This document shows positions 2,247 through 20,065 of a stretch of DNA of 20,910 bases, piece by piece; position 1 is the stretch's first letter, and each line of letters starts with the position of its first letter. A program made the position numbers and the translations under genes. This DNA comes from a virus, in IMG/VR virus record IMGVR_UViG_3300045919_000358, positions 1 through 20,910 of that record; one strand, given 5' to 3'. The notes below the pieces were generated by a model that saw only the letters and a program-made list of their open reading frames with translations, was not told where the DNA came from and ran no database searches.

Positions 2247-3935
2247 ATGACCATCTCCAGCACCAGCACTCGCAAGTCGATCGCCACCGGCAACGGCGTG
2301 ACGACCGCGTTTCCATTCTCGTTCAAGGTCTTCACAACCGCTGACGTGCTGGTCGTTCTCACCGACCTAAGCTTGGTCGAGACCACCCAGACCCTGACCT
2401 CGCAGTACACCGTGTTGCTGAACACGGACCAGGACAGCAACCCTGGTGGTACGGTGACGATGGTGGCGGCCCCCGCCACCGGGTATCTGCTCACGGTCGC
2501 ATCCCAAGTAGCCCAGACCCAGGGCGTACTGCTCACAAGCGCGGGCGGGTTCTTCCCGGAAGTGATCAATACCGCGCTCGACAAGGCGACGGTCCTGGTC
2601 CAGGACCTGCAGGAGAAGATCGGCCGCGCGCTGCTCACGAACATCTCGTCCAGCATCACGCCGTCGGCGCTGGTCGCCCAGCTGCAGGGCTACGTGACTG
2701 CCGCCGGCACGAGCGCAAGCAACGCAGCTACCAGCGCGACGAACGCGGCCGCCAGCGCCGTCAGCGCAGCGGCGAGCTTGGCGTCCGTGATCGCGGCTGC
2801 GGTGACGAACACCAGCACCAACGTGTTCAGCAACAAGACCCTGCTCGCCAGCGGGCCGAACACCGTCGAGGCCACCTCTGGCCCCGGGGCTTCGCAGCTT
2901 GGCAACCGCAACCGAATCCAGAACGGTGAATGTCTGGTGCAGCAAAGGACCGCCGTTGGCGGAATAACTGGTGCTACTGCTGGAGTAACAAGCGGGATTT
3001 ATGGAGCAGTTGATAGGTTTGGGTTTGCATTGGGGAATGCGGCCGTCACTGGAGTTTTTAACATTGGTGCTTCAAACCTTGTTATTAATTCAAACACTAC
3101 ACCGTGCGTTTTGGTGACATGCGCAACGGCATACACGCCAACGTCAACGAATTCAGTTACCCCTATATTCCAAAGAATAGAAGGTAACAATTCTTTTGAT
3201 TTGAACAACAGCCCGGCTTCTCTTTCGTTTTGGTTCCAGGGAACGGTTGCAGGAAACTACGCGGTTCAGATTACGGACTCCACAGGAAGCCAGTCGTATT
3301 CGACAACTTTTGCGTATGCTGTTGGGGGCGCTCCGCAATATGTTTCCATATCGGTTCCTACGTTACCGGCGTTGACAGGTAACGTAAAAGGCACTGGAAC
3401 AGGCTTGCAAGTGCTTATTGGTGCTGTCGGAGGATCAGCGGCAACCGGATCGTGGGTGTCTAGCTACGTTGCAGGCGTTGCAGGCGTAGTGAACTGGTGC
3501 GGCACCAACGGGAATTACATTGCAGCCACGAGAATTCAGCTTGAGCCTGGATCTACTGCCACTCCGTTTGAGGTACGCGATATTGGTGACGAACTGCGCC
3601 GGTGCCAGCGTTATTACACTAAGTCATACAACGATGGAGTCGCACCAGGCACTGCATCGGCTTCGTCTTACATTGGCATGACTTGTAGCGGAGCCGCGAC
3701 TCAACTGTTTGGTAACGTGTTATTTCCGGTAACGATGAGAATAACACCCACAGTTAGTTTATATTCGTTCGCAGGTACGGCAAATGTTTTGAGTAATAAC
3801 GCTGGCGTTGATCAGGCAGGAACCGCAGCGGTTTCCGTTGTCACTTCAAAAGCATTTTCCGCCGGGTCGAATTCTTCGGCGCTGACTCTTGGAACGGTAT
3901 ACCTAGCCAACTATGTTGCGAGCGCGGAACTGTAA
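2247..3935 (+). CDS. Tail fibre protein with T7 gp17-like N-terminus and swapped receptor-binding C-terminus
   Basis: This 562-aa protein probably attaches to the tail through its N-terminus and binds the host receptor through its C-terminus. Residues 1-135 match the podovirus fibre N-terminal pattern: GNGVTTAFPFSFKVF, a TVTMVAAPATGY strand, and an ALDKATVLVQDLQEKIGRAL helix. Residues 150-190 are an Ala/Ser/Thr-rich tail-repeat segment. From about residue 222, RNRIQNGECLVQQRT begins a C-terminal module of the type usually read as NRIINGDF...QRG. It ends with RIQLEPGSTATPFEVRD and RRCQRYY, typical of fibre carbohydrate-binding modules. GC content falls sharply from about 2918 to 3925, so the C-terminal module looks horizontally acquired. 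The stop overlaps the next start by one base (TAATG). Confidence 0.88.
   Translation: MTISSTSTRKSIATGNGVTTAFPFSFKVFTTADVLVVLTDLSLVETTQTLTSQYTVLLNTDQDSNPGGTVTMVAAPATGYLLTVASQVAQTQGVLLTSAGGFFPEVINTALDKATVLVQDLQEKIGRALLTNISSSITPSALVAQLQGYVTAAGTSASNAATSATNAAASAVSAAASLASVIAAAVTNTSTNVFSNKTLLASGPNTVEATSGPGASQLGNRNRIQNGECLVQQRTAVGGITGATAGVTSGIYGAVDRFGFALGNAAVTGVFNIGASNLVINSNTTPCVLVTCATAYTPTSTNSVTPIFQRIEGNNSFDLNNSPASLSFWFQGTVAGNYAVQITDSTGSQSYSTTFAYAVGGAPQYVSISVPTLPALTGNVKGTGTGLQVLIGAVGGSAATGSWVSSYVAGVAGVVNWCGTNGNYIAATRIQLEPGSTATPFEVRDIGDELRRCQRYYTKSYNDGVAPGTASASSYIGMTCSGAATQLFGNVLFPVTMRITPTVSLYSFAGTANVLSNNAGVDQAGTAAVSVVTSKAFSAGSNSSALTLGTVYLANYVASAEL
2918..3925 (+). other. Low-GC segment encoding the fibre C-terminal module
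   Basis: Base composition drops from the high-GC background to about half GC across this stretch, with many A/T-ending codons (ATA, AGA, TTA, AAT) that are scarce in flanking genes. The left edge falls on the conserved RNRIQNGE linker. The right edge lies just before the stop codon, after which GC returns to background. This is what a modular exchange of the receptor-binding domain would leave. It does not form a separate gene. Confidence 0.7.
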
Positions 3936-7270: not shown

Positions 7271-7693
7271 TCACCGTTTAGCAAACTCGTGATCGTTCGA
7301 CGCGTACTCGGCGGCCTTTAGTTGGATCTCAAGCCGTTTTCGGAGCTCGGCGTTCTCCTTTTTGAGGGCGCGGATCTGACCGTGCAGGTACGGCAGCGCC
7401 AGTAAGTCCCCGGTGTGGAAGGGTTCTCCTGCCGGGGAGCACAGATTCCCGTCGCTGTCGAAGCCCCAGCCTTCCCATGTCCGGCACTCCATCCCAGGCA
7501 GCCGCATCATGACGATCGCGTTTAGTGCGATACGCACCGCTTCGGGTGGCTCGGTCTGCTTTTCCCGCCACCGGACCACGGTAGTGCGGTACACATTTAG
7601 CGCGGTTGCAGTATTGTCAATCCCATACAAGTCAATCAATTCAATGACTTGCGCCCACTTTTGTTCCCGTCGTCGTTCGCGCACGTTTAGCAT
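7271..7693 (-). CDS. DUF3653-like phage regulator with HTH and C-terminal coiled coil
   Basis: A 140-aa protein. The frame is open upstream to 7843, but those residues are encoded by a promoter-like AT-rich gap. The ATG at 7693 (MLNVRERRREQKW) is the sensible start, although its GAGGGA sits unusually close. Residues 10-45 form an HTH-like segment (IELIDLYGIDNTATALNVYRT). Then come MMRLPGMECRTWEGWGFD and a DGNLCSPAGEPFHTGDL block, close to the DUF3653 pattern found in phages of xanthomonads and relatives. Residues 100-130 are a coiled coil (IRALKKENAELRKRLE). A DNA-binding regulatory role is likely. It is the last gene of the leftward block. Confidence 0.6.
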   Translation of the reverse strand: MLNVRERRREQKWAQVIELIDLYGIDNTATALNVYRTTVVRWREKQTEPPEAVRIALNAIVMMRLPGMECRTWEGWGFDSDGNLCSPAGEPFHTGDLLALPYLHGQIRALKKENAELRKRLEIQLKAAEYASNDHEFAKR

Positions 7694-7835
7694 TCCCTCA
7701 TGGTAGATGAAGTGCCCGCTAAACGTAAGTGTTTGATAATGCGGATAATATGTATTCTGACAGGCATATTTGCGGTGTACCCTTAGCGGCCTAGCCGGTG
7801 CATTATGCACGGGCCCGCGACTAAACGGGAGGGGT
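7694..7835. other. AT-rich non-coding gap with a 13-bp palindrome
   Basis: This gap separates the leftward regulator from the helicase block. It contains the palindrome GTGCAT-T-ATGCAC (7798-7810) and AT-rich, promoter-like sequence. The best leftward candidate is CTGTCA, 16 nt, CATTAT, which is weak. Isolated TTTAG or CTAAA halves occur here, but no full copy of the operator seen at 17164. Confidence 0.35.
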
Positions 7836-11015: not shown

Positions 11016-13055
11016 TCATTGCTCCTTGAAATAGCGATACGTTTCAAACCCGGCCGCCGCGAGCGGCAGCCCTTCTGTCCATTCGTGGCCGGCCGCCATC
11101 TGCGCCGCGAGGTCCTGGGCGCTGTAACGGTCGATGTCGGGCGCCTCGGTGATGAGCTCGTCGTGCACATGCAGCACGATCTGGTAGCCCAGATCCTCGA
11201 CGCCGGGCATGCTGTCGTAAAGCACGTCCCGGGCAACGGACTGGCACATGTTCTCGAACAGCTTCCCGCCGTAGGTGGACAGGCGACACCACTTGCGGGA
11301 GTACTGGTTCACGCCCATGTAGGTCAGCTTGCCGTCGGTCACCTGCGGCGACGGGTAGCAGAGCGATCGCCCGCTGGGCAGCACGATCCGCAGCCACGCG
11401 CCAGACCTCACGACGTAGCAGCGCCGGCACGGAACCTTGACGCCCGGGTTTGCCATCGCCTTGAAGCAGGCGTTCTCGATCTCGCCCCAGTAACTGCTGA
11501 TCGCGTCGTGCGCCTCGCGCCACAACCGGGTGAGCACGTCGCACGCTATGAAGGCCGCGTCTGACAGGCCGAACTGATCATTGCCCTGCCGCCGCCACCA
11601 GAGCAGGAACTCCTCGCTCGCTGCCAGGACGTCGAGCGGTGCAGCCTTTTGAACCAGGACCGCGAGCTCCTCGAGGTCGATCCCGTAGGCGGCGGCAAAG
11701 GTCACGAACGCCCCGACCCGACCCTGGTACTGCAGCGCCAACTCCTGGACCTTGCCGACCTGGCGCTGCGGCTTGGTGACATCGGCCGGGTCGATGTTGA
11801 ACGACCTGGCGTAGGCCACCTTGTAGAGGTCGGCGCCCAGGCCGGCGTCGAAGTCTTCGAACGCTCGGATCTTCCAGTCCTCGCCAGCCAGCCAGGCGGC
11901 GACCCGGCCCTCGATGTTGGACAGGTCAGCCACCACCAATTTCTTGCCAGGCGGGGCGACGATCGCGCCCCGGACGCAGCTGGCAATCACCGCCATCGGC
12001 CGGTCGAACACCAAGTGCAGGGCGTCCATCTTCATGAGGTCGATGCCGTGGTCGATCTCCCACTGCTCGACGGTCGGTCTTGGGAGATTCTGCGGCTGGA
12101 ATGTACGGCCAGCTGCCCGGCGGGTGCGGCCGGCGCCGTCGAACTGGATGGTTCCCCGCATGCGCCCGCCGGTGTGGCCGGCGGCCAGCACCTTGTACTT
12201 GGCGACCGATGTGCTGCTTGAGTCCAGCCGGATCTCCAGCAGCACCCGGATGCCTTCCGCGAGCCCCGGGTCCTCGAGCAGCTTCTCAAGGGTGGCCTTC
12301 TGCAGGTTCGGGATCTGGAGACCGTAGGCGTCGAGCAGGTGCTGCAGCAGCACGTCCCGCTGCGTAGCCGCGGCTACCTCGCCGGCGGTCTCCTCGCGCG
12401 TCCGCTCGGCCAGCGCCGCCTGCTCGCGCTCTGCGGCCCGCTGGGCGGCGTCGACCAGATCCAAGTCCACACAGAACCCGCGGTCATTGATGATCTGGTC
12501 CAGGTGCCAGAGCTCGATCTCGCGGTCGTCATAGTTCCAGGTCGGCAGCCGCTTCCAGACCTCGCGCATGGCGCGGACGTCCTGCTTCGCGTACTCGACA
12601 AATTGGGCCCACTCCTGCGGGTGGGTGTCCTTCGTTGCCCGGCGCAGCTTTTGGTTCGCTGGGCGGGGCTTGCAGAAAAGGTTAATCAATTTCTTGTCAC
12701 CGTCCAGCTTCCACAGTTCGGGCGGCAGCCCCATGACATCGCACAATTTCGCGAGCCCACCAGGCAGCGCGTGCGCCATGGCGCGAACCATGGAGCAGCG
12801 CCACTTGTGAAGCGGCACGGCCAGCGTTGAACGCAGGGCGTTGCGGTCAAACATCGCGTTATGGGCGACGACGATGTCGGCGTCGGCGACCGCCGACAGG
12901 AGATCCGTCGAGGGTTCGGCGCCCTCGCAAACCACTTCCCCGTCATCGACCGCCCAGGTGATGAGCATGACCTCGACGTCGGCCGTGTACCGGTAGGTGC
13001 CAGCCTGGATCGGGGTCTCGCTGTAGGTCTCGCAGTCGAGGTAGAGAGTGGTCAC
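11016..13055 (-). CDS. Family A DNA polymerase with 3'-5' exonuclease
   Basis: A 679-aa replicative polymerase. The exonuclease domain (1-170) has DCET (Asp7, Glu9), AHNAMFD (Asn66, Asp70) and YAKQDVRAM (Tyr155, Asp159). The polymerase domain has motif A VVADLSNIEGR (Asp377), motif B RQVGKVQELALQYQG (Lys435) and motif C HVHDE (His631, Asp632). All catalytic residues are present, so both activities should work. Motif A reads DLSNIEGR where Pol I has DYSQIELR. It begins at a GTG that overlaps the previous stop (GTGA). It is grouped with SSB and a RecB-like nuclease, as in a self-sufficient phage replisome. Confidence 0.95.
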   Translation of the reverse strand: MTTLYLDCETYSETPIQAGTYRYTADVEVMLITWAVDDGEVVCEGAEPSTDLLSAVADADIVVAHNAMFDRNALRSTLAVPLHKWRCSMVRAMAHALPGGLAKLCDVMGLPPELWKLDGDKKLINLFCKPRPANQKLRRATKDTHPQEWAQFVEYAKQDVRAMREVWKRLPTWNYDDREIELWHLDQIINDRGFCVDLDLVDAAQRAAEREQAALAERTREETAGEVAAATQRDVLLQHLLDAYGLQIPNLQKATLEKLLEDPGLAEGIRVLLEIRLDSSSTSVAKYKVLAAGHTGGRMRGTIQFDGAGRTRRAAGRTFQPQNLPRPTVEQWEIDHGIDLMKMDALHLVFDRPMAVIASCVRGAIVAPPGKKLVVADLSNIEGRVAAWLAGEDWKIRAFEDFDAGLGADLYKVAYARSFNIDPADVTKPQRQVGKVQELALQYQGRVGAFVTFAAAYGIDLEELAVLVQKAAPLDVLAASEEFLLWWRRQGNDQFGLSDAAFIACDVLTRLWREAHDAISSYWGEIENACFKAMANPGVKVPCRRCYVVRSGAWLRIVLPSGRSLCYPSPQVTDGKLTYMGVNQYSRKWCRLSTYGGKLFENMCQSVARDVLYDSMPGVEDLGYQIVLHVHDELITEAPDIDRYSAQDLAAQMAAGHEWTEGLPLAAAGFETYRYFKEQ

Positions 13056-13243
13056 CGCAGATATACCTTGTAGGACTTGATCATCTTGACCCCTAGGCGG
13101 CCGCTCAGCTGCAACCGAAGGGCGACCTTAGTCGCCCGGTGCTGGGGCCACCCAAGCGCTTGCGCTGCCTGAGCGGCGGTCCAGCGATGTTTCTGCCGGC
13201 GCCCCCACTCAATCAGCACAGCCATGTCGCCCATCGGCTCCAT
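13052..13243 (-). CDS. Small winged-helix-like DNA-binding protein
   Basis: A 63-aa protein. Residues 12-45 (RRQKHRWTAAQAAQALGWPQ, then HRATKVALRL) look like a helix-turn-helix, followed by a short basic wing (GRLGVKMIKSYKVYLR). It lies between SSB and the DNA polymerase, with a TGATG overlap upstream and GTGA downstream. It could be a replication accessory or a regulator. It was not recognised as a named family. Confidence 0.6.
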   Translation of the reverse strand: MEPMGDMAVLIEWGRRQKHRWTAAQAAQALGWPQHRATKVALRLQLSGRLGVKMIKSYKVYLR

Positions 13244-13806
13244 CAGAACAGGTCTTCCGCGGTCTCCTCGCCTTGGTCGGCGAGGTTGTCGAACCCGTCG
13301 GCGCTGGCGCGCTTGGCGCCCCCGAAGCTGTCGCCGTCGCGGCTGAACTGGACCGCGCGAAAGCCGGCGCGGATGCCAGGGTTCTGCCCGGTCTGCGCGT
13401 AGATTTCGACGAACGCGTTCACGTAGCAGCCACCGTAAACAACGCCGTCACCGGCCTTGAGTTCGATGGACGGGTTGCGGTGCACGACCTTGGGCGCGCC
13501 GTCGGTGTCCTTGCGGTGGGAGGCCAGATACATGTGGCCTTCATACCCGTCGTAGTCCTTGGTATCACCGTCCAGGTAGCAGATCTTCTGGCTATTGCCC
13601 TCCATCGTGGATTTCAGCTTCGGCCACTTGGCGCCGAACGCGTCGGCCCCGACCTTGTCGATCGCCGCCTTGACCTTGCGGTCGTTGGCGCTGTTCGGCT
13701 CGACCAGGAAAGTCGCGTTGAACCGGTACTTGCCGTCACCGTTGAAGTCCTTCGGCTCCCACAGATCCGGGAACGACAGCCGCACATCTTCGAGTTTCAA
13801 TTCCAT
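13243..13806 (-). CDS. ssb: Single-stranded DNA-binding protein, DUF2815/Enc34 type
   Basis: A 187-aa protein. The start MELKLEDVRLSFPDLWEPK is characteristic of the DUF2815 (Enc34 ssDNA-binding) family. The body is an OB-fold-like set of strands including KYRFNATFLVEP and GVVYGGCYVNAFVEIY. A disordered acidic tail ends in EETAEDLF, matching the acidic tip through which phage SSBs recruit partners. It would coat single-stranded DNA during replication and recombination. A good AAGGAG lies 7-9 nt before the ATG. It is next to the polymerase and DUF2800 genes, the usual neighbours of this SSB. Confidence 0.9.
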   Translation of the reverse strand: MELKLEDVRLSFPDLWEPKDFNGDGKYRFNATFLVEPNSANDRKVKAAIDKVGADAFGAKWPKLKSTMEGNSQKICYLDGDTKDYDGYEGHMYLASHRKDTDGAPKVVHRNPSIELKAGDGVVYGGCYVNAFVEIYAQTGQNPGIRAGFRAVQFSRDGDSFGGAKRASADGFDNLADQGEETAEDLF

Positions 13807-13810
13807 GGTG

Positions 13811-13999
13811 TTACTCCTTGAAAAAAAGAGGGTACTTTTGCTTCACTTCCTGGGCCGCTTGGTCCAGGACTTTCGACCGCTGGAGCTCCAGCAGCCGCTC
13901 GTCGTCGCCCGTCAGCGCCCGGGCTGTGGCGGCCGCCGCCATGAGAATCGCCCGGGCGCCCGGGGGCAGGATCATGCTCGACTGCTGGGGCCGTTTCAT
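13811..13999 (-). CDS. Small helical protein between SSB and DUF2800 genes
   Basis: A 62-aa protein beginning MKRPQQSSMILPPGARAILM. It has an Ala-rich helix (AAAATARALTGDDERLLELQ) and a Lys-rich end (VKQKYPLFFKE). The ATG overlaps the DUF2800 stop by one base (TGATG). No family is recognised. Its conserved place suggests a replication or recombination accessory protein, but the sequence shows no motif. Confidence 0.6.
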   Translation of the reverse strand: MKRPQQSSMILPPGARAILMAAAATARALTGDDERLLELQRSKVLDQAAQEVKQKYPLFFKE

Positions 14000-15306
14000 C
14001 AGATCAAGTCCTCCTCAAGGTTGGCGAACGAATCCCGGGCGATCGCCGGGCGCGGGTCGGACTCGGCCACCACGATCGGCGCCCCGTTCTTGCGGGCGAT
14101 GTGGGCCCGGACCTTCTCCCACTGCCGCGCCGTGATCGGCCGGTCCTCGTGGCCCTTCTTGAGCACACCGTCCTTGCCCAGCTGCTGGACCAGCTTCTCG
14201 GCTGAGGTCGGGCTGATCAGCTTGTGCTCGTACATCGTGTCCTTCGGCAGCCGCAGCGACTTGAGTGCCTTCTCGGCCGCCTCGGCGTCGGCCCAGTGCC
14301 TGGCACCGAGCTCGCCTTCGATCAGCTTGTAGCCGGCCACTGGCTGACCCGCCTCGAGCCGGGCCCGGACCTCGTCCTCGACCGCTTTGATCCACTGCTC
14401 CAGGAGCGGAATCCGTGCCTTGGCTGCTGCCAGCGCGTCGGCGTCGGCTTGGGTCAAGTCGCTGAACCCGTTCGCGGTCGCCTGCTCCGCGACGTGGTCG
14501 GCGACCGCGTTGAGAGCGGGGCAGGTAGCCTTCGCCGGGCAGAACTGGCAGCCCTCGGTGGTGGGGTTCAGGAACTCGTTGTCCATCCCGCCGGCGTTGT
14601 ACTGCGCTTCAGCCTCGAGCACCCGGCTTGCGACAAAACGGATCTGCTGCTCAAGCGCCGCCATCTCGACCGGGGTGTAGACCACTTCCTTGACCCCACC
14701 GTTACGGGGCTGATGGATCACGAACCGGAACTGATGCACGGAATCCGCGAGATCCTGCGGCAGGGTGCGCCACAGACCCAGCAGGTACATCGGGCCCTGC
14801 AGGCCGTGCTGATCGACCGCCTTGCCTCGCCCGTACTTGAGGTCGGCGTCAACCAGTTCGTGCGAGCCGGGGCGGTTGGCGATCGGGAGCAGGGCGCCGA
14901 AGTCCAGCGTGCTGAACGCGCCGTCCTCGCCCGTCAGCCAGCCGATCGGGACCGCGTGCTCAATCCAAATCTGAACGGCCGACTGGATCATCGCGGCGCA
15001 GAAGTCGGTGTACTGGGTGACGAACCCGACCATGTCGTCGTCTACCTGAAACTCGGTATAGGGCGGCTCGTCGTCCAGGCCGGCCCAGATCGCGCCCTGA
15101 GGCGTGACCCGGATCAGCTTGCCCAGGAAGTCGCGCGGCTCGACCTCGAGCAACATCGACTCGCTGGCGAGGAAGTGGGCAGCGGTGCCCTCGTCGGCCG
15201 CCTGCGAGCTCCGGTTCGGCAAACCCCGGGACAGGGCCAGCGAGCCCGGGCACGCCTCGAGCCGGTCGAGCTTGGATGCCGAGATGTCGGCGTGCAGGCC
15301 GGGCAT
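13999..15306 (-). CDS. DUF2800 RecB-like PD-(D/E)XK nuclease with Fe-S type cysteines
   Basis: A 435-aa protein. The ATG at 15306, one base after the previous stop, is preferred over an upstream ATG at 15366. It shows SASKLDRLEACPGS at the N-terminus, GTAAHFLA (His44), STLDFGALL (Asp135) and VDADLKYGRGKAVD (Asp155, Lys157), the core of the nuclease site. It then shows CQFCPAKATCPA (Cys253, Cys256, Cys262). With Cys19 these form the four-cysteine pattern of AddB/Cas4-like 4Fe-4S nucleases. It probably resects DNA ends for phage recombination or replication. It is located directly upstream of SSB. Confidence 0.85.
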   Translation of the reverse strand: MPGLHADISASKLDRLEACPGSLALSRGLPNRSSQAADEGTAAHFLASESMLLEVEPRDFLGKLIRVTPQGAIWAGLDDEPPYTEFQVDDDMVGFVTQYTDFCAAMIQSAVQIWIEHAVPIGWLTGEDGAFSTLDFGALLPIANRPGSHELVDADLKYGRGKAVDQHGLQGPMYLLGLWRTLPQDLADSVHQFRFVIHQPRNGGVKEVVYTPVEMAALEQQIRFVASRVLEAEAQYNAGGMDNEFLNPTTEGCQFCPAKATCPALNAVADHVAEQATANGFSDLTQADADALAAAKARIPLLEQWIKAVEDEVRARLEAGQPVAGYKLIEGELGARHWADAEAAEKALKSLRLPKDTMYEHKLISPTSAEKLVQQLGKDGVLKKGHEDRPITARQWEKVRAHIARKNGAPIVVAESDPRPAIARDSFANLEEDLI

Positions 15307-15307
15307 C

Positions 15308-15682
15308 TCAGGCCACCATCGCCGATTTGATGGCGGCGAAAACGGTGGGCAGGGAATCGACCGCAACCAGCGACAGCTTCTGGGCGCCGACCTTGGACAG
15401 GCAGGCCTGCGCAGCCGCAGCGCCCTTCGTCTTGATCAGTTCCTTGAACGCCGGCAGCACGTCCTTTTCATAATCGACGACATCGGGCACGAGCTCGACT
15501 TCGGGGGCGGGTTCGGTCTTGGGAGGACCGGCCTTGATCTTGGCTTCAAACTGCTCCTTGGTCGGGAACGGCTTGGCCTGCTCCTTGGTGTAGGTGCTGC
15601 CGGTGATGACGGTGCCGGCCTGCAGCGCGGCCAGGACCTCGCGCAGTACGGCAGTGTTTTCCTTGATCGCTTCTTCAAGCAT
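15308..15682 (-). CDS. Helical phage protein upstream of the DUF2800 nuclease
   Basis: A 124-aa protein. The ATG at 15682 has AAGGAG 8 nt upstream and is chosen over an in-frame start at 15739. Residues 1-22 form an amphipathic helix (MLEEAIKENTAVLREVLAAL), followed by a Pro/Lys/Glu-rich linker (residues 35-66). The C-terminal segment (FKELIKTKGAAAAQACLSKV, then GAQKLSLVAV) resembles small helical domains found beside phage SSB or annealing proteins. A role as a partner of the recombination proteins is possible but not shown. Confidence 0.65.
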   Translation of the reverse strand: MLEEAIKENTAVLREVLAALQAGTVITGSTYTKEQAKPFPTKEQFEAKIKAGPPKTEPAPEVELVPDVVDYEKDVLPAFKELIKTKGAAAAQACLSKVGAQKLSLVAVDSLPTVFAAIKSAMVA

Positions 15683-15801: not shown

Positions 15802-15831
15802 GGCGACGTTCCTTTAGTCAGTGGAAAAGAA

Positions 15832-15860
15832 AATGTAGCAGTTACTAAACATCCAGGCAA
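15832..15860 (-). promoter_or_regulatory. Internal leftward promoter with repressor operator
   Basis: The -35 box TTGCCT (15860-15855) is followed after 17 nt by the -10 box TACATT (15837-15832). The spacer holds a 16-bp operator-like site, TTTAG-N6-CTACA (15849-15834), five bases after the -35 box and overlapping the -10 box by four bases. The geometry is identical to the 17162 and 17746 promoters. It would drive the replication gene block (15801 leftward) and place it under the same repressor. The right half differs by one base from CTAAA, so binding may be weaker. Confidence 0.6.
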
Positions 15861-15872
15861 GCGAAATCGTGA

Positions 15873-16034
15873 TCAGGGCATCAGGCCGTGCTTCGGGATC
15901 GCCAGCACCGGCTGGGCGACCTTATCGGGGATGACGAGCTCCTGCACAGACGGGGCCCGCAGTCCGCAGACGGACATACCCGCCGCGAGGCTGTAGTCGG
16001 GCCGCAGGAAGATGAGTACGAGGGTAGAGATCAT
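15873..16034 (-). CDS. Small protein with hydrophobic start
   Basis: A 53-aa protein starting MISTLVLIFLRPDYSLAAGM, then SVCGLRAPSVQELVIPDKVA and a short tail. The ATG at 16034 overlaps the preceding stop (ATGA). The first ten residues are hydrophobic but too short for a clear signal peptide. No family is recognised. It is the last gene before the internal promoter. Confidence 0.5.
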   Translation of the reverse strand: MISTLVLIFLRPDYSLAAGMSVCGLRAPSVQELVIPDKVAQPVLAIPKHGLMP

Positions 16035-16291
16035 GCTGCACCCCCAGCCTTGGCGATTGCGGCGCGGGCGATCTTGGCGCACCACGCTGCCTCGGGGGAT
16101 TTTTTGTCGCCTTCGAACTGGGCAATCAGTTCCAGAGCGGCCAGCAGTTCCGGCGCGGCTGCGACCAGTTTTGCCTCGCATTCAGGCAGACCATGGGCGA
16201 TGAACCGCTCCTGCGGGCTTCCGCCGTCCATCACCTCGTAACCTGCGGTGATCGTTGTCGAATAGCGCGAGTACCAATTGGTGGCGCTCAT
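16031..16291 (-). CDS. Small phage early protein with the 'AAPELLAALE' motif
   Basis: An 86-aa protein. The N-terminal half (MSATNWYSRYSTTITAGYEV) is polar, followed by a helix with KLVAAAPELLAALELIAQFE (residues 41-60). The AAPELLxALE helix appears in many small phage early proteins of unknown function. The C-terminus is Ala-rich and helical (AWCAKIARAAIAKAGGAA). ATGA overlaps on both sides show that it is part of one operon. Confidence 0.65.
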   Translation of the reverse strand: MSATNWYSRYSTTITAGYEVMDGGSPQERFIAHGLPECEAKLVAAAPELLAALELIAQFEGDKKSPEAAWCAKIARAAIAKAGGAA

Positions 16292-16560
16292 GCTGCACCC
16301 CCGGTGGCTTCTGCATAGTCGGCTTCCATCTGGCGGACGGCAGACTTAGCATCGCGCAGCAGGCCGTATTTTTGGCACCATTGGCCGTTCATGAAAACGT
16401 GCCACCCGGTCTGAACGTCGCGTCCAAGGCGATCCGTGTATGCGCGCTCGATGGTGAGGATCGGCTTGCCCGGCAAGTCCCTGTAGAACTGCCGCTCTGC
16501 TGCTTTCAGGGTGACCCTCCCGGCAGGTGAGCTATCGAAGTCGATCTGGGTGGTTTGCAT
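16288..16560 (-). CDS. Small early accessory protein
   Basis: A 90-aa protein. The ATG at 16560 has AGGAG about 9 nt upstream and is preferred over an upstream in-frame start at 16596. It starts MQTTQIDFDSSPAGRVTLKA, with ILTIERAYTDRLGRDVQTGW and WHVFMNGQWCQKYGLL later, so it is probably a compact mixed alpha/beta protein. Its first codons share a 16-bp identity with those of the 17122 gene. Function is unknown. A GGCCCC/GGGGCC hairpin (16608-16625) lies in the 77-bp gap upstream. Confidence 0.6.
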   Translation of the reverse strand: MQTTQIDFDSSPAGRVTLKAAERQFYRDLPGKPILTIERAYTDRLGRDVQTGWHVFMNGQWCQKYGLLRDAKSAVRQMEADYAEATGGAA

Positions 16561-16607
16561 GGTGACTCTCCTAATTGGTTGGCTACGGATACGCATCGCT
16601 GCGTTTC

Positions 16608-16625
16608 GGCCCCAGCCACGGGGCC
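16608..16625. repeat. GC-rich hairpin between early genes
   Basis: GGCCCC (16608-16613) and GGGGCC (16620-16625) form a 6-bp stem with a 6-nt loop in the gap between two early genes. There is no T-run on either strand, so a terminator or attenuator role is only possible. Confidence 0.25.
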
Positions 16626-16637
16626 TCGTCAGTCCGG

Positions 16638-16892
16638 TCAGAATGGGATGTCGTCCCAGTAGCCGGCGGGATCGAGCGGGGCGGGTGGGCCGACAAAAGT
16701 GTCAACGCTTGCCACGAATTCCGGCTCTTCGTAGTAGTCGGGACCGGCCTCCGGGTGAGGCTGGGCCGGACCTTCATAAAACGGGTTGCGGTACCACGCG
16801 TCGCGGTCGCTCAGGACCCAGGCTTCGCCGGGGTTGTCGCGGCCCACGTTCCGGGCGAACTCCCGGTCCGCCTGCGCGTCGGTGGCGATCAC
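16638..16892 (-). CDS. Early protein with an SSB-like acidic C-terminal tip (DDIPF)
   Basis: An 84-aa protein starting at a GTG that overlaps the previous stop (GTGA), with GGAGG 6 nt upstream. Residues 1-35 are polar and include DRDAWYRNPFYEG. The rest is Pro/Glu/Asp-rich and probably disordered (EAGPDYYEEPEFVASVDTFV). The last residues are GYWDDIPF. The tip DDIPF is the same as the end of E. coli-type SSB, which docks many repair and replication proteins. No OB-fold is visible, so this is not an SSB. It may bind host SSB-partner proteins by mimicry. Confidence 0.6.
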   Translation of the reverse strand: MIATDAQADREFARNVGRDNPGEAWVLSDRDAWYRNPFYEGPAQPHPEAGPDYYEEPEFVASVDTFVGPPAPLDPAGYWDDIPF

Positions 16893-17122
16893 TTGGCACC
16901 TCCGGCGAGGCGGGCGATCTCGGCGTCGAAGGCGCTTCCGGTCATTTGGTCTTCGAACCACTCCAGGCGGAGGCCCATCTCGCGAAAGGTGTCGTACATG
17001 TTCTGGCGGTAGGACTCGATCGCCTCTTCCGGGCTGTCGTACCCCCGGATGTTGCGCTGGTCCCAAGCGCATGCGGCGTGGTGGCGGGCTTCGGCTACGA
17101 TGTCGATCTGGGTGGTTGTCAT
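16889..17122 (-). CDS. First gene of the early leftward operon, small helical protein
   Basis: A 77-aa protein. The ATG at 17122 has AGGAG 8 nt upstream, and a start at 17161 would lie within the promoter region. It begins MTTTQIDIVAEARHHAACAW, with helices around PEEAIESYRQNMYDTFREMG and LEWFEDQMTG. It sits directly downstream of the 17162 promoter, so it is expected to be made early. No family was recognised. It overlaps the next gene (GTGA). Confidence 0.6.
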   Translation of the reverse strand: MTTTQIDIVAEARHHAACAWDQRNIRGYDSPEEAIESYRQNMYDTFREMGLRLEWFEDQMTGSAFDAEIARLAGGAK

Positions 17123-17161
17123 TTTGTGTCTCCTGTTTATTAATAACGTACTGGAGGACAC

Positions 17162-17190
17162 ACTTTAGCCGCGGCTAAACACTGCGTCAA
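17162..17190 (-). promoter_or_regulatory. Early leftward promoter (PL-like)
   Basis: TTGACG (17190-17185), a 17-nt spacer, and TAAAGT (17167-17162) form a good sigma-70 type promoter reading leftward into the 17122 gene. A perfect 16-bp palindrome lies in the spacer and covers four bases of the -10 box, so a bound repressor would block RNA polymerase. It controls the small early genes and, by read-through, the rest of the left operon. Confidence 0.8.
17164..17179. promoter_or_regulatory. Operator OL, perfect 16-bp palindrome
   Basis: TTTAGCCG followed by CGGCTAAA is a perfect palindrome. It is the strongest copy of the site. Its position between the -35 and -10 boxes is the same as at 17757-17772 and 15834-15849. 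Confidence 0.8.
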
Positions 17191-17210
17191 CACTTTTCGT
17201 AACGTGTTGA
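17187..17210. repeat. Inverted repeat beside the leftward promoter -35
   Basis: TCAACAC (17187-17193) and GTGTTGA (17204-17210) are perfect 7-bp arms 10 bp apart, and the left arm overlaps the -35 box. It could be a second regulator site, for example for an activator or for the Cro-like protein. It is unlike the TTTAG operator. Confidence 0.45.
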
Positions 17211-17251
17211 TTCCACACGTAAAAAACAGCACAGAAATTTAGACTTTGCGA

Positions 17252-17273
17252 AACCCTTTGCGCTGCAAGGGTT
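17252..17273 (-). terminator. Hairpin directly after the repressor gene, possible terminator
   Basis: AACCCTT (17273-17267 on the minus strand) pairs with AAGGGTT (17258-17252). Inner GC pairs give a compact stem four bases after the repressor stop. Only a short T-run (TTT) follows, so termination may be weak. It would separate the repressor transcript from the early left operon. Confidence 0.4.
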
Positions 17274-17277
17274 CCCG

Positions 17278-17679
17278 TCAGATTGCCAGTTTCAGCATCT
17301 GCTCGACGTAGGGCGGGGATATGCGCCCCGTTTTGCGGGCGTCCTCATAGATCATGAGGACCAGCTGGGCGATCTTGGCGCAGGGCAGATCCTTCGCGCC
17401 GGGGGCATCCAGTACCGTACAGACGGCGTCCACCAACAATTCGGGCACAAGACCGTCGGTTTGTTCCTTGTGCTCGGCGTCCAGCCACCCAGCCGGGAGT
17501 TCCAGAGTCTGTTCGATACGCCTCGCTGCCTTCTCCCCGAACTCGCTGTGACCGTTCGCCAACTGGCTCAGGTATGACGGGCCCGACAACTCGAGTCTGC
17601 GTGCCAGGGTGGTGGGGCCACCCCATTGAGACACCAGCAGCGCTAAGTTCGCGCGGCGGGTTTCTCCTATCGTTTTCAT
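17278..17679 (-). CDS. CI-like repressor without cleavage domain
   Basis: A 133-aa protein. Residues 20-66 form a lambda/P22-type helix-turn-helix domain: GPTTLARRLELSGPSYLSQL, then GHSEFGEKAARRIEQTL and the closing LPAGWLD. The remaining 65 residues are a small helical tail (LVPELLVDAVCTVLDAP). There is no S24 peptidase domain with its Ser-Lys pair, so RecA-driven self-cleavage is unlikely. GGGAG lies 5 nt before the ATG. It is read leftward from a promoter next to a degenerate operator and is the obvious candidate to bind the TTTAG-N6-CTAAA sites. Confidence 0.8.
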   Translation of the reverse strand: MKTIGETRRANLALLVSQWGGPTTLARRLELSGPSYLSQLANGHSEFGEKAARRIEQTLELPAGWLDAEHKEQTDGLVPELLVDAVCTVLDAPGAKDLPCAKIAQLVLMIYEDARKTGRISPPYVEQMLKLAI

Positions 17680-17718
17680 ATTGTTCTCCCAAGGTGTTAC
17701 GTGAAGCGTGCGTCAGGA

Positions 17719-17747
17719 ACTTTAGCACCGGCTCATGATAAATGTTT
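17719..17747 (-). promoter_or_regulatory. Candidate repressor promoter (PRM-like) with degenerate operator
   Basis: A -10 box TAAAGT (17724-17719) faces the repressor gene. Seventeen bases upstream is AAACAT (17747-17742), a poor -35 box, so the promoter may need help from bound protein, as lambda PRM does. The spacer holds a degenerate operator, TTTAG-N6-CTCAT on the + strand (17721-17736), at the same relative place as in the other promoters. Confidence 0.45.
17721..17736. promoter_or_regulatory. Degenerate operator, possible autoregulation site
   Basis: TTTAGCACCGGCTCAT keeps the left half exactly but has two mismatches in the right half. Its centre is 36 bp from the 17757 operator. It overlaps the candidate repressor -10 box, as expected for autoregulation. 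Confidence 0.45.
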
Positions 17748-17774
17748 GCAGTAACTTTTAGCCGAGACTAAAGT
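17746..17774 (+). promoter_or_regulatory. Early rightward promoter (PR-like)
   Basis: TTGCAG (17746-17751), a 17-nt spacer and TAAAGT (17769-17774) read rightward into the Cro-like gene. The -10 box is identical to that of the leftward promoter. The operator at 17757-17772 fills the spacer and overlaps the -10 box by four bases. Transcription would start about 30-35 nt before the first ATG. Confidence 0.72.
17757..17772. promoter_or_regulatory. Operator OR, near-palindromic
   Basis: TTTAGCCGAGACTAAA has perfect 5-bp outer halves, and its first eight bases match the perfect operator at 17164. Its spacing to the -35 and -10 boxes is the same. Confidence 0.75.
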
Positions 17775-17815
17775 TTGGTCTGTGCGTTACCCCACTTTGA
17801 GACCTTAGGATGAGC

Positions 17816-18100
17816 ATGATGAAGAACGCGTTGCGCCGGTGGCTGGACTCAGCCACCAGCACCGAGAAGCAGCAGCTGGCTAACAAGGCCCGCACGAGCC
17901 TGGGCAACCTGGCCCAGATCGCTGGTGGATACAAGCGGAACGGGAAGGCGTCGACCTCGCCCGATACCGCTCGAAAGATTGAGCAGGCGGCCGCCTCGCT
18001 CCAGCGCGAGGGCTTGCCGGCGGTCCTGCGTGAGGACCTTTGCGTCCACTGCAACAAGTGCGAGCTCGCGAAAGCGGCCAGACTGCTGCCCCTCGAGTAA
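17816..18100 (+). CDS. Cro-like regulator with a C-terminal Cys motif
   Basis: A 94-aa protein (96 from the ATG at 17810). The third in-frame Met at 17816 has AGGA 5 nt upstream and is preferred. Residues 20-60 form a Cro-type helix-turn-helix: QQLANKARTSLGNLAQIAGG, then SPDTARKIEQAA. The C-terminus carries CVHCNKC, a possible metal site unusual for Cro proteins. It is the first gene after the rightward promoter and opposite the repressor, the classic position for Cro. It probably binds the same operators to shut down repressor synthesis. Confidence 0.7.
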   Translation: MMKNALRRWLDSATSTEKQQLANKARTSLGNLAQIAGGYKRNGKASTSPDTARKIEQAAASLQREGLPAVLREDLCVHCNKCELAKAARLLPLE

Positions 18101-18106
18101 ACCCTC

Positions 18107-20065
18107 ATGACAGCTATACCGATCCGCTGGGGTGCTACCCAGCTGGAGTGGGACCGCTTCTCTCTGGGGCTTGACCTTTGCGTCGATTTGCTGCCAGTTG
18201 TCAGCAACCCGAACGCCAAGATCAGCCCCAGATCCGCCATCAAGGAAGTGGGCAAGACACCCTCGAGGTACGACCGCGAGAAGCTTGTCGTCGGCATCGC
18301 GGACTGGACCTCGAAGGTCACAGAGCAGCGCGAGTGCAAGATATGGGCGACCGAGCCCGACTACGGGATCTGTGTCCAGACCCGGCGCGTGCGCGCAATC
18401 GACATCGACGTGCCTGACCCGGCCCAGGCCCACGCAATCAGCGCCGCGGTCAAGGAGATGCTGGGCGAGCTCCCGACCCGTACCCGCAGCAATAGTGGCA
18501 AGTGCTTGCTGGCGATCGAGGTCGCGGGCGAGCTCACCAAGCGCCGGCTGACGGTCGCCGGGGGTGTCGTTGAGTTCCTGGCGACCGGCCAGCAGTTCAT
18601 CGCGGTCGGCACCCACCCGTCCGGGGTCAAGTACGAGTGGGAGGGCGGGCTGCCCGACGAGATCCCCACCATCTCGCTGGACGCCTTCGAACTGGTCTGG
18701 GCGATGCTGCAGGACCGGTTCGGGGTCGGTGATAGTGTCGAGTCCAAACCATCGACCAAGGCGCTGACGCTGGCCGAGGCGTACCGTGCTGACCCGCTGG
18801 CGCAGTTCCTGGTAGATGGTGGCTGGGTCAAGCGGACCGACAAGACCGGGGCGCTGCACATCCGCTGCCCTTGGGAGGACGAGCACACCGGCGACTCGAG
18901 CGACACGGCCACCACCTACTGGCCGGCGCATACGGGTGGCTACGAGCACGGCGGGTTCAAGTGCCAGCACGCCCACTGCATCGGGCGCGGGGTCGAGGCA
19001 ATGCGGCAGGCGATCGGCTACGCTCAGGGTGACTTCGAGAACCTGGACGATGGCAGGACGCCCGAGGCCGCGGGGCCCCAAGGCAAGCCTGCCAGGTTCC
19101 AGGTGCTGTCGGCTGCCCAGTTCGTGCGGCGGCCGGCCCCGACCTGGCTGATCGAGGACGTGCTGCCGCAGGGTGAGCTCGTGGTCCTGTTCGGGGAGTC
19201 TGGCGCCGGCAAGTCCTTCATGGCGCTGGATCTGGTTATGGCGATCGCTCGCGGGGTCCAGTGGCGCGATCGGGAGGTGGTCAAGGGCAGGGTGGTCTAT
19301 GTCTGCGCCGAAGGCTCCAGGGGCTTCATCAGCCGGCTCGAGGCCTACGCCGAGCACAACAACTTGGACGTCGATACCTTACCGGTCGGGTTTGTCGTCG
19401 ATGCACCGAACCTGCTGCAGCGGGCCGAGTGCCTCGAGGTCGCATCTCAGATAGGCCGCGCCGACGTGGTGGTGTTCGACACCTTCGCCCAAGTCACGCC
19501 TGGCGGGAACGAGAACAGCGGCGAAGACATGGGGCTGGCTCTCAGCCACTGCAAGGGCATCCACCGGGCGACCGGTGCCACGGTCCTGCTGGTGCATCAC
19601 AGTGGCAAGGACGCAAGCAAGGGTGCCCGTGGGTGGTCTGGGCTGCGTGCCGCAGCCGATGCTGAGTTTGAGGTCATTGATAGCGGTCACGGGCGCTCGA
19701 TGACCGTGACCAAGCAGAAGGACGGCGAGACCGGCGAGGAGTTTGGTTTTGTGCTGGCCGACGTGCTGCTGGGTGTCAGCCCCAAGGGTAAGCCGATCGT
19801 TGGCAAGGTGGTCGAGCATACCGGCGAGGTATCCAAGCGCAAGGTGCCGGCCAGGGGTGCTGTCGAAAAGGTGGCGCTTAGGGTGCTGGGTGAGCTCAAG
19901 GAAGCTGGCCCGGTCTCTCAGGCTGAGTGGATTGATGCTGCCGTTGAGAACCTGCCGGCGGGGTCTCCGGGGGGTAGAGATACCCGCCGGCAGCGGGTGA
20001 TGAGGGCTGTCGAGTGCCTCGTGGCGCTCGGCCATGCGGTCATTGTTGAAGGGAAAGTGGCATGA
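18107..20065 (+). CDS. Primase-polymerase/RepA-like helicase fusion
   Basis: A 652-aa replication protein. Residues 1-200 are a bifunctional primase-polymerase domain with RAIDIDVPD (Asp99, Asp101), RSNSGKCLLAI (128-136) and EFLATGQQFIAVGTH (His170). A Cys/His cluster follows (HIRCPWEDEH at 251-260 and FKCQHAHC at 284-291), probably zinc-binding. Residues 340-560 are a RecA-fold helicase with Walker A GESGAGKS (363-370), Walker B VVVFDTF (454-460) and VLLVHHSGKD (493-502). The C-terminal 70 residues look like a winged helix. It would open the origin, unwind DNA and make primers. The iteron cluster starts right at its end. Confidence 0.9.
   Translation: MTAIPIRWGATQLEWDRFSLGLDLCVDLLPVVSNPNAKISPRSAIKEVGKTPSRYDREKLVVGIADWTSKVTEQRECKIWATEPDYGICVQTRRVRAIDIDVPDPAQAHAISAAVKEMLGELPTRTRSNSGKCLLAIEVAGELTKRRLTVAGGVVEFLATGQQFIAVGTHPSGVKYEWEGGLPDEIPTISLDAFELVWAMLQDRFGVGDSVESKPSTKALTLAEAYRADPLAQFLVDGGWVKRTDKTGALHIRCPWEDEHTGDSSDTATTYWPAHTGGYEHGGFKCQHAHCIGRGVEAMRQAIGYAQGDFENLDDGRTPEAAGPQGKPARFQVLSAAQFVRRPAPTWLIEDVLPQGELVVLFGESGAGKSFMALDLVMAIARGVQWRDREVVKGRVVYVCAEGSRGFISRLEAYAEHNNLDVDTLPVGFVVDAPNLLQRAECLEVASQIGRADVVVFDTFAQVTPGGNENSGEDMGLALSHCKGIHRATGATVLLVHHSGKDASKGARGWSGLRAAADAEFEVIDSGHGRSMTVTKQKDGETGEEFGFVLADVLLGVSPKGKPIVGKVVEHTGEVSKRKVPARGAVEKVALRVLGELKEAGPVSQAEWIDAAVENLPAGSPGGRDTRRQRVMRAVECLVALGHAVIVEGKVA

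Follow-up and report, generated by a model that had tools for sequence, protein, structure and literature searches.

The window, by which we mean the whole 20,910-nt stretch analysed here (positions 1 to 20,910 of IMG/VR record IMGVR_UViG_3300045919_000358), carries a repressor gene and a Cro-like gene in divergent orientation. Downstream of the repressor gene lie the promoter PL and then short early-left ORFs, and 1.3 kb inside the left operon a further candidate promoter, P3, stands ahead of genes for DNA replication (Table 1).

Table 1. Genes, promoters and operator-like sites of the window.
Feature	Position	Strand	Details
Degenerate operator-like dyad	7708..7723	-	TTTAGCGGGCACTTCA; upstream of HTH gene starting at 7693; weak; 6.0 bits
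Family A DNA polymerase	11016..13055	-	family matches
Enc34-type ssDNA-binding protein	13243..13806	-	family matches
DUF2800 / PD-(D/E)XK exonuclease	13999..15315	-	family matches
124-aa gene	15308..15682	-	homologues in relatives follow a P3-type site at the same place
First ORF after P3, 35 aa	15694..15801	-	Shine-Dalgarno AAAGGA
P3, candidate internal replication promoter	15832..15860	-	TTGCCT 15860-15855, GGATG, operator TTTAGTAACTGCTACA 15849-15834, -10 TACATT 15837-15832; 21.1 bits
PL, early-left promoter	17162..17190	-	TTGACG 17190-17185, CAGTG, operator TTTAGCCGCGGCTAAA 17179-17164, -10 TAAAGT 17167-17162; 19.6 bits
Weak operator-like dyad	17238..17253	-	TTTCGCAAAGTCTAAA; between repressor gene and PL; 10.7 bits
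Repressor, 133 aa	17278..17679	-	HTH domain and helical C-terminal part; PaaR2-like DNA-binding domain
Fourth, imperfect operator	17719..17736	-	ATGAGCCGGTGCTAAA; 16-mer at 17721, ATGAGCCGGTGCTAAAGT; 14.4 bits
PR, early-right promoter	17746..17774	+	TTGCAG 17746-17751, TAACT, operator TTTAGCCGAGACTAAA 17757-17772, -10 TAAAGT 17769-17774; 14.4 bits
Cro-like candidate, 96 aa	17810..18100	+	first gene of early-right; weak PHROG 10248 match
Primase / AAA helicase	18107..20065	+	second gene of early-right; family matches

At PL, PR and P3, a -35 box is followed by 5 nt and a 16-bp dyad of the TTTAG-N6-CTAAA type, the last four bases of which are the opening bases of the -10 box, with a spacer of 17 nt in all three. 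This arrangement had been described in a first-pass annotation and was confirmed in every element and position, as was the single right-half mismatch of the P3 operator (CTACA for CTAAA). P3 also has a TGC extended -10 and is located in a 71-bp gap (15802-15872), one of the few in a tightly packed operon. All three sites described earlier are real, but a fourth had been missed, and by its sequence the window holds at least four. This fourth site, at 17721, has the same register to its -10 box (TAAAGT), which precedes the repressor gene, and a poor -35 (AAACAT); it would be a PRM-like site for repressor autoregulation. The 17238 dyad, which is without a -35 and has a score expected about 0.2 times by chance, is of doubtful function. 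Weaker dyads were also detected at 7686/7708, and relatives have stronger sites at the spot matching the 7708 dyad.

Dyad matches with up to two mismatches numbered 10 in the window, compared with 1.5 expected. When the window was scored with a matrix of 18 positions, built from other phages with the window left out, P3 ranked first, followed by PL and then by PR and the 17721 site with equal scores. Under a second-order Markov null, 0.001, 0.0013 and 0.035 sites per window are expected at 21.1, 19.6 and 14.4 bits, respectively, and three sites at or above 14.3 were never seen together in any of 3000 simulated windows. Part of the training loci were obtained by pattern scan and, as the training sites were defined by the same core, conservation of that core is not independent evidence. 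The hexamers are weak as plain sigma-70 promoters, and a consensus scan reported PL only. A terminator scan near P3 revealed nothing relevant, and no common RNA leader structure was found overall downstream of the promoters (mean z 0.02).

The repressor matches PHROG 5736/12107 (transcription regulators) and has 12 homologues at 35-42% identity. It gave no Pfam match, and the LexA/S24 peptidase domain of lambda CI-type cleavable repressors is absent from its 133 residues, for which AlphaFold predicts an all-helical model (pLDDT 87.8). A phmmer search matched residues 32-74 to the N-terminal domain (NTD) structures of PaaR2 (7nkv/8c3l, E 1.6e-11), and VIA-align superposed the protein on 8c3l with Z 8.2 and rmsd 2.0 at 48% identity over 58 residues. 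The best structural match of the N-terminal domain was Rep of Salmonella phage SPC32H (5d50; Z 12.6, rmsd 1.5, 27% identity over 74 residues), a structure solved in complex with an antirepressor; no antirepressor candidate was identified for the window. The sequence match to PaaR2 stops at residue 74-76, the solved PaaR2 chains found being of the NTD only, and the structure search listed mainly HTH domains and gave no information on the C-terminal part. Judged from these alignments, the repressor HTH is homologous to that of PaaR2 from prophage CP-933P. The protein would bind its dyads probably as a dimer or higher oligomer.

The PaaR2/YdaS region of CP-933P, a cryptic prophage of E. coli O157:H7, also resembles the window in its divergent repressor and Cro-like genes, and Escherichia phage Evi has an immunity region of the same type. 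In CP-933P, palindromic TTTAG half-site operators were footprinted over PR, PRM and PL, with the half-site GTTTAGTAA, and PaaR2 repressed PL about 100-fold in reporters (PMC8630535). In the window, the TTTAG-N6-CTAAA core likewise overlaps PR and PL and, as the imperfect 17721 copy, the repressor promoter; against the full 9-bp half-site, the window sites keep TTTAG and vary in the flanks, those of PaaR2 (G-TTTAG-TAA) not being kept. The CP-933P operators form clusters, at PL and in the immunity region, and the available text reports none at an internal replication promoter, whereas the window has dispersed single sites and its replication genes have their own (PMC8630535). The two also differ in that paaA2-parE2, which in CP-933P follows paaR2 in a three-gene toxin-antitoxin operon, is not present downstream of the window repressor, where the short early-left ORFs have no toxin or antitoxin family matches. 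RacR of the Rac prophage, also divergent from YdaS and with the same layout, was rejected as the type because its repeats, GCCTAA/TTAGGC, differ (PMC5700373).

Sites lie in several early promoters of the window, a pattern that would suit a dispersed-operator regulon of the P1 C1 type, with one repressor acting on several unlinked early promoters. The operators of P1 C1 include replication control. That regulon likewise joins one repressor to dispersed operators, 22 over the genome (PMC8546580), but C1 is a different protein and its operators are asymmetric 17-mers (ATTGCTCTAATAAATTT), in contrast to the dyads of the window. The repressor of mycobacteriophage L5 has sites scattered along the genome, some within promoters and others in short gaps between genes (PMC9283540). 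Each is an asymmetric 13-mer to which a monomer binds, and many are proposed to stop elongation. Such stoperators need not lie in promoters, and the type was ruled out for the window, where the sites are dyads overlapping -10 boxes.

No DNA-level relatives were found in phage records, and the motif was followed in about two dozen distant relatives, with PolA 43-52% identical and the repressor, where seen, at the identity given above. Among these the motif recurs at the matching syntenic spot ahead of the exonuclease, SSB and PolA genes. The internal site had at first been considered unusual; on the contrary, a second site, separate from PL and lying before the exonuclease gene or between it and ssb, is nearly universal, being present in 14 of the 15 relatives with this operator in which the stretch is visible (sites assigned by hand). 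The best score within 1.6 kb upstream of the exonuclease was 17.9-32.3 in most operator-type loci and below 9 in most other loci, the 99% level of the null being 11.8. For PolA relatives in which 5.5 kb or more of upstream sequence was available, strict sites were detected in all nine with a repressor homologue (six without near-duplicates; about 0 expected) and in 5 of 54 without a detected one. In one of those five, L101, the repressor is cut by the contig end. L125, L127 and L137 keep the sites with no detectable repressor homologue, so another protein may use them. One site was present in L133 where others have two, and the site that relatives have after polA is absent from the window, which has no comparable gap. 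In a relative that can be cultured, phage PCA1 of Curvibacter sp. AEP1.3, imperfect copies of the motif were seen in the repressor region, ahead of the exo-ssb-pol operon and behind the helicase gene.

The first-pass annotation had taken the shared geometry, spacing included, as the mark to scan for in relatives. The motif recurs there and the operator-to--10 register is conserved, whereas the -35 distance is loose, spacers of 16-17 being only mildly favoured among sites chosen without regard to that distance; the exact -35 distance was dropped as a defining feature. Of 28 sites in loci found without use of a promoter pattern, 26 have a T at the end of the -10 box, a few symmetric ones having been oriented by that T, and 22 have a TG ahead of the box. 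Left halves are TTTAGC at PL and after polA, and often TGTAGC at the replication promoter.

The control of PL, PR and the internal promoter by one repressor, as first proposed, fits every comparative test, and a regulon of dispersed sites under one repressor is well supported by these sequence data because the motif scores, the recurrence, the confinement to a prophage described below, the HTH homology to PaaR2 and the shared TTTAG half-site all point to it. The repressor appears to hold shut at least four early promoters, one of them for DNA-copying genes, and very likely does so as a PaaR2-type protein on -10-overlapping dyads at PR, PL, its own promoter and P3. Bound at these dyads, it would block RNA polymerase, since their last four bases begin the -10 box. 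The Cro-like protein and primase-helicase would thereby be repressed from PR, the early-left operon from PL, the repressor gene by autoregulation, and P3 in the same way. P3, for which a lower affinity is predicted, would upon release transcribe the exonuclease, SSB and polymerase genes independently of PL.

It is quite possible, though rather short of probable, that the Cro-like protein is the main user of the sites, or shares them with the repressor, P3 then being shut late in infection and not only in the lysogen. YdaS, the Cro analogue of CP-933P, binds overlapping DNA at PR and PRM and represses PL (PMC8630535). Part of the Cro-like protein looks like an HTH and resembles the one in the repressor, and one locus protein matches both; homologues at 32-37% identity lie at the same place in L092, L103, L105, L120, L134 and L137, the last of which keeps the operators and this homologue with no detectable repressor. 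On the other hand, the presence of the motif follows the repressor family well, and the Cro-like protein has weak family matches only (none in Pfam, and no relative in a search of viral contigs) and no known binding site. It may use the sites as well. That the motif is merely a conserved extended -10 promoter, its dyad not an operator, is improbable: the right half is the -10 and, outside the core, the preceding TG and the final T are most constant, but the left half mirrors the right (TGTAGC/GCTACA at several P3 sites) where sigma-70 needs no fixed sequence, and the motif tracks the repressor and matches the half-site footprinted for PaaR2 (PMC8630535). A chance resemblance at P3, leaving PL and PR as the sole real operators, could draw on its mismatch and weak -35 and is very unlikely given its top score in the window by an independent matrix, the rare operon gap and the same place in relatives. 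Host repressors, too, typically use palindromes that cover -10 boxes, yet the least credible reading is that the sites belong to a regulator of the host, for instance one of the LexA type, as every strict site of the one Burkholderiales genome tested (2.9 Mb) is on the prophage contig, and in phages of Escherichia and Klebsiella the motif is likewise found next to repressor homologues.

Returning to the immunity repressor, its predicted direct control of the replication genes at an internal promoter means that phage replication in a lysogen or superinfected cell would meet more than one block. Dispersed-operator phage regulons are already known as a kind; here the replication genes would have their own operator. 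The PaaR2 operator class, known experimentally from one cryptic prophage, is extended to many phages. A testable repressor, operator and regulon are also provided for a group of phages, most of them uncultured, with a replication module related to the one in Bordetella phage BPP-1. It may also be possible to predict immunity groups by means of the operator motif, with sequence as the only input. More speculatively, and less likely than not, every early unit could carry a standard operator-promoter cassette in which a half-site supplies the (extended) -10 bases and half-sites are tuned by position, so that falling repressor would free the replication genes and PL at different thresholds, a timed programme from one repressor.

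A genome-contig scan with the closer alignment set (A2) yielded a single Burkholderiales prophage. Different operators in the same layout were sought by a dyad scan of the relatives that lack this repressor, which returned mostly G+C-rich noise; the sole suggestive case was L038, with a divergent repressor and CTTTA-N8-TAAAG at 3518, 5605 and 9082.

The first-pass annotation had proposed that three promoters, early left (PL), early right (PR) and an internal replication promoter (P3), share one operator in one geometry, and a check of the sequence found this geometry exactly as described. In each, the last four bases of a TTTAG-N6-CTAAA-type dyad of 16 bp form the start of the -10 box. A fourth copy stands in equal register to a -10 ahead of the repressor gene, without a good -35. 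P3 lies within a 71-bp gap (15802-15872) of an otherwise tightly packed operon and carries a TGC extended -10, whereas PL and PR do not. If transcription started near 15825, the P3 leader would have about 24 nt to the first ATG (15801); the stretch up to this ATG includes AAAGGA.

Predicted operator-promoter sites and putative regulatory genes; expected numbers per window are from a second-order Markov null
Feature	Position	Strand	Operator	Promoter orientation	Matrix score	Expected sites
PL	17162-17190	-	17164	TTGACG-CAGTG-TTTAGCCGCGGCTAAAGT	19.6	0.0013
PR	17746-17774	+	17757	TTGCAG-TAACT-TTTAGCCGAGACTAAAGT	14.4	0.035
P3	15832-15860	-	15834	TTGCCT-GGATG-TTTAGTAACTGCTACATT	21.1	0.001
Fourth site	17736-17719	-	17721	ATGAGCCGGTGCTAAAGT	14.4	0.035
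Repressor gene (133 aa)	17278-17679	-				
Cro-like gene (96 aa)	17810-18100	+				
Distal HTH gene	7274-7693	-				

In the window, a viral contig of 20,910 bases, the order to the left of the repressor region is small early genes, a 35-aa ORF, a 124-aa gene, a DUF2800/PD-(D/E)XK exonuclease, an Enc34-type SSB and a family A polymerase; the Cro-like gene and a primase-helicase lie rightward. The replication cassette is similar to that of Bordetella phage BPP-1, which we take to be our locus L011, whose polymerase is 55% identical to that of the window.

The motif was found in about two dozen distinct loci among the relatives collected (about 110 loci from polymerase searches and 25 stretches from a pattern scan). 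The sites of the window were ranked with an 18-position matrix built from 47 strict sites of other phages, the window being left out. In the relatives, sites were located between the repressor and Cro-like genes, 3' of the repressor (as PL) and ahead of the 124-aa gene or the exonuclease (as P3), or, in L100, L105 and L137, between exonuclease and SSB; further sites lay 3' of polA and in front of a later HTH gene. By hand assignment, a second site ahead of the SSB and separate from PL was present in 14 of the 15 relatives with the PL-to-SSB stretch visible (L100, L101, L105, L110, L119, L120, L123, L125, L126, L127, L129, L134, L137 and L144), the exception, L133, having a single site. Contrary to what had been supposed, an internal replication site is not unusual among relatives with this operator. 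L039, L040, L093 and L095, with repressor regions outside the view, also had a site ahead of the 124-aa gene. Most operator-type loci reached 17.9 to 32.3 as their best score in the 1.6 kb upstream of the exonuclease, a stretch that takes in PL in some loci, and most other relatives stayed below 9 (99% value of the null, 11.8); in L093 and L095, operator-type loci without a high score there, the sites lie farther upstream. The replication promoter of the window has one operator-like site, in contrast to pairs exactly 34 bp apart in L040 (329/363), L134 (6874/6908) and L144 (11956/11990).

When the polymerase relatives were restricted to those with 5.5 kb or more of upstream sequence, strict sites were present in all carriers of a repressor homologue and in 5 of 54 in which no homologue was detected; in two of these five, the repressor is cut by the contig end (L101) or the locus stops short of the repressor region (L093). 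Operator-type loci had 9.0 sites of at least 14 bits per 20 kb and 80 repressor-negative loci had 0.37, a contrast rather than an independent test, as the former were picked by the motif. In the Burkholderiales genome with prophage L144 the strict motif occurred on the prophage contig only, and in the quite different genomes of Escherichia phage Evi and Klebsiella phage 5 motif copies flank a repressor homologue. L125, L127 and L137 keep operators with no repressor homologue found by profile search, and could be virulent derivatives or users of another protein; L137 keeps a Cro-like gene (6943-6710). In L038, with a divergent repressor, another dyad, CTTTA-N8-TAAAG, occurs at 3518, 5605 and 9082, one copy being in the exonuclease-SSB gap, and operator and repressor may have changed together. 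A second repressor paralogue directly follows the first in L106 (10232-10696) and L110 (9601-10065). Curvibacter phage PCA1 (L146), which is named and has a culturable host, carries imperfect motif copies at the repressor region (14081), ahead of the exo-ssb-pol operon (22733) and 3' of the helicase gene (31660).

The repressor matched the solved chains 7nkv, 8c3k and 8c3l, the last titled as the PaaR2 N-terminal domain. The region that PaaR2 protects, over PR and PRM, contains 18-bp palindromes with half-site GTTTAGTAA; PaaR2 represses PR and PL in reporters and at low levels activates PRM, and its Cro analogue, YdaS, binds overlapping DNA (PMC8630535). Because of this precedent, the TTTAG-N6-CTAAA sites are likely operators, at which the Cro-like protein plausibly also acts.

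Loci collected without recourse to a promoter pattern supplied 28 sites. Of these, 26 end the -10 with T and 22 have TG just before it, whereas a -35 with at least four matches stood at spacer 17 in only four sites and at spacer 16 in three. Therefore, the conserved feature is the operator-to--10 register; the distance to the -35 is loose in relatives. A good -35 was common with a symmetric CTAAA right half (TTGACA in L040 and L144, for instance), and an extended -10 with CTACA or CTATA, giving the impression, from few sites, that the two compensate for each other. The left half TGTAGC, found at the P3 sites of six distinct loci (L119, L120, L123, L126, L129 and L144) and at none of 15 PL sites, suggests weaker predicted repressor binding at those P3 sites. 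A hairpin such as GTGGTTGATTTTGACCAC directly follows the promoter at L040 6387, L131 2027, L144 10636 and 17582, L151 7603 and L101 396, and was not general among the leaders examined in relatives.

The proposal that one repressor controls all three promoters is thus supported by the syntenic recurrence of the sites, their link to the repressor family and the homology to a footprinted repressor, with corrections as to register and rarity. The repressor would bind the operators and, through their overlap with the -10, block polymerase; it may regulate its own gene via the fourth site, and after derepression the replication genes would be expressed separately from P3. As a family search revealed no recognisable peptidase domain in the repressor, induction probably depends on a route other than self-cleavage driven by RecA; an antirepressor is one option, for which the analysis gave no candidate.

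In kind, the system joins the known dispersed-operator regulons, among them those of P1 C1, with 22 operators (PMC8546580), and mycobacteriophage L5 (PMC9283540). Here, however, the predicted operators are palindromic, -10-embedded and of the PaaR2 class, and one at an internal replication promoter is conserved; the open-licence papers searched contained no prior account of such a regulon in this group of phages. The distal HTH gene of the left operon, kept in many relatives, possibly encodes a late regulator, and operator-like sites lie upstream of genes of this type in relatives.
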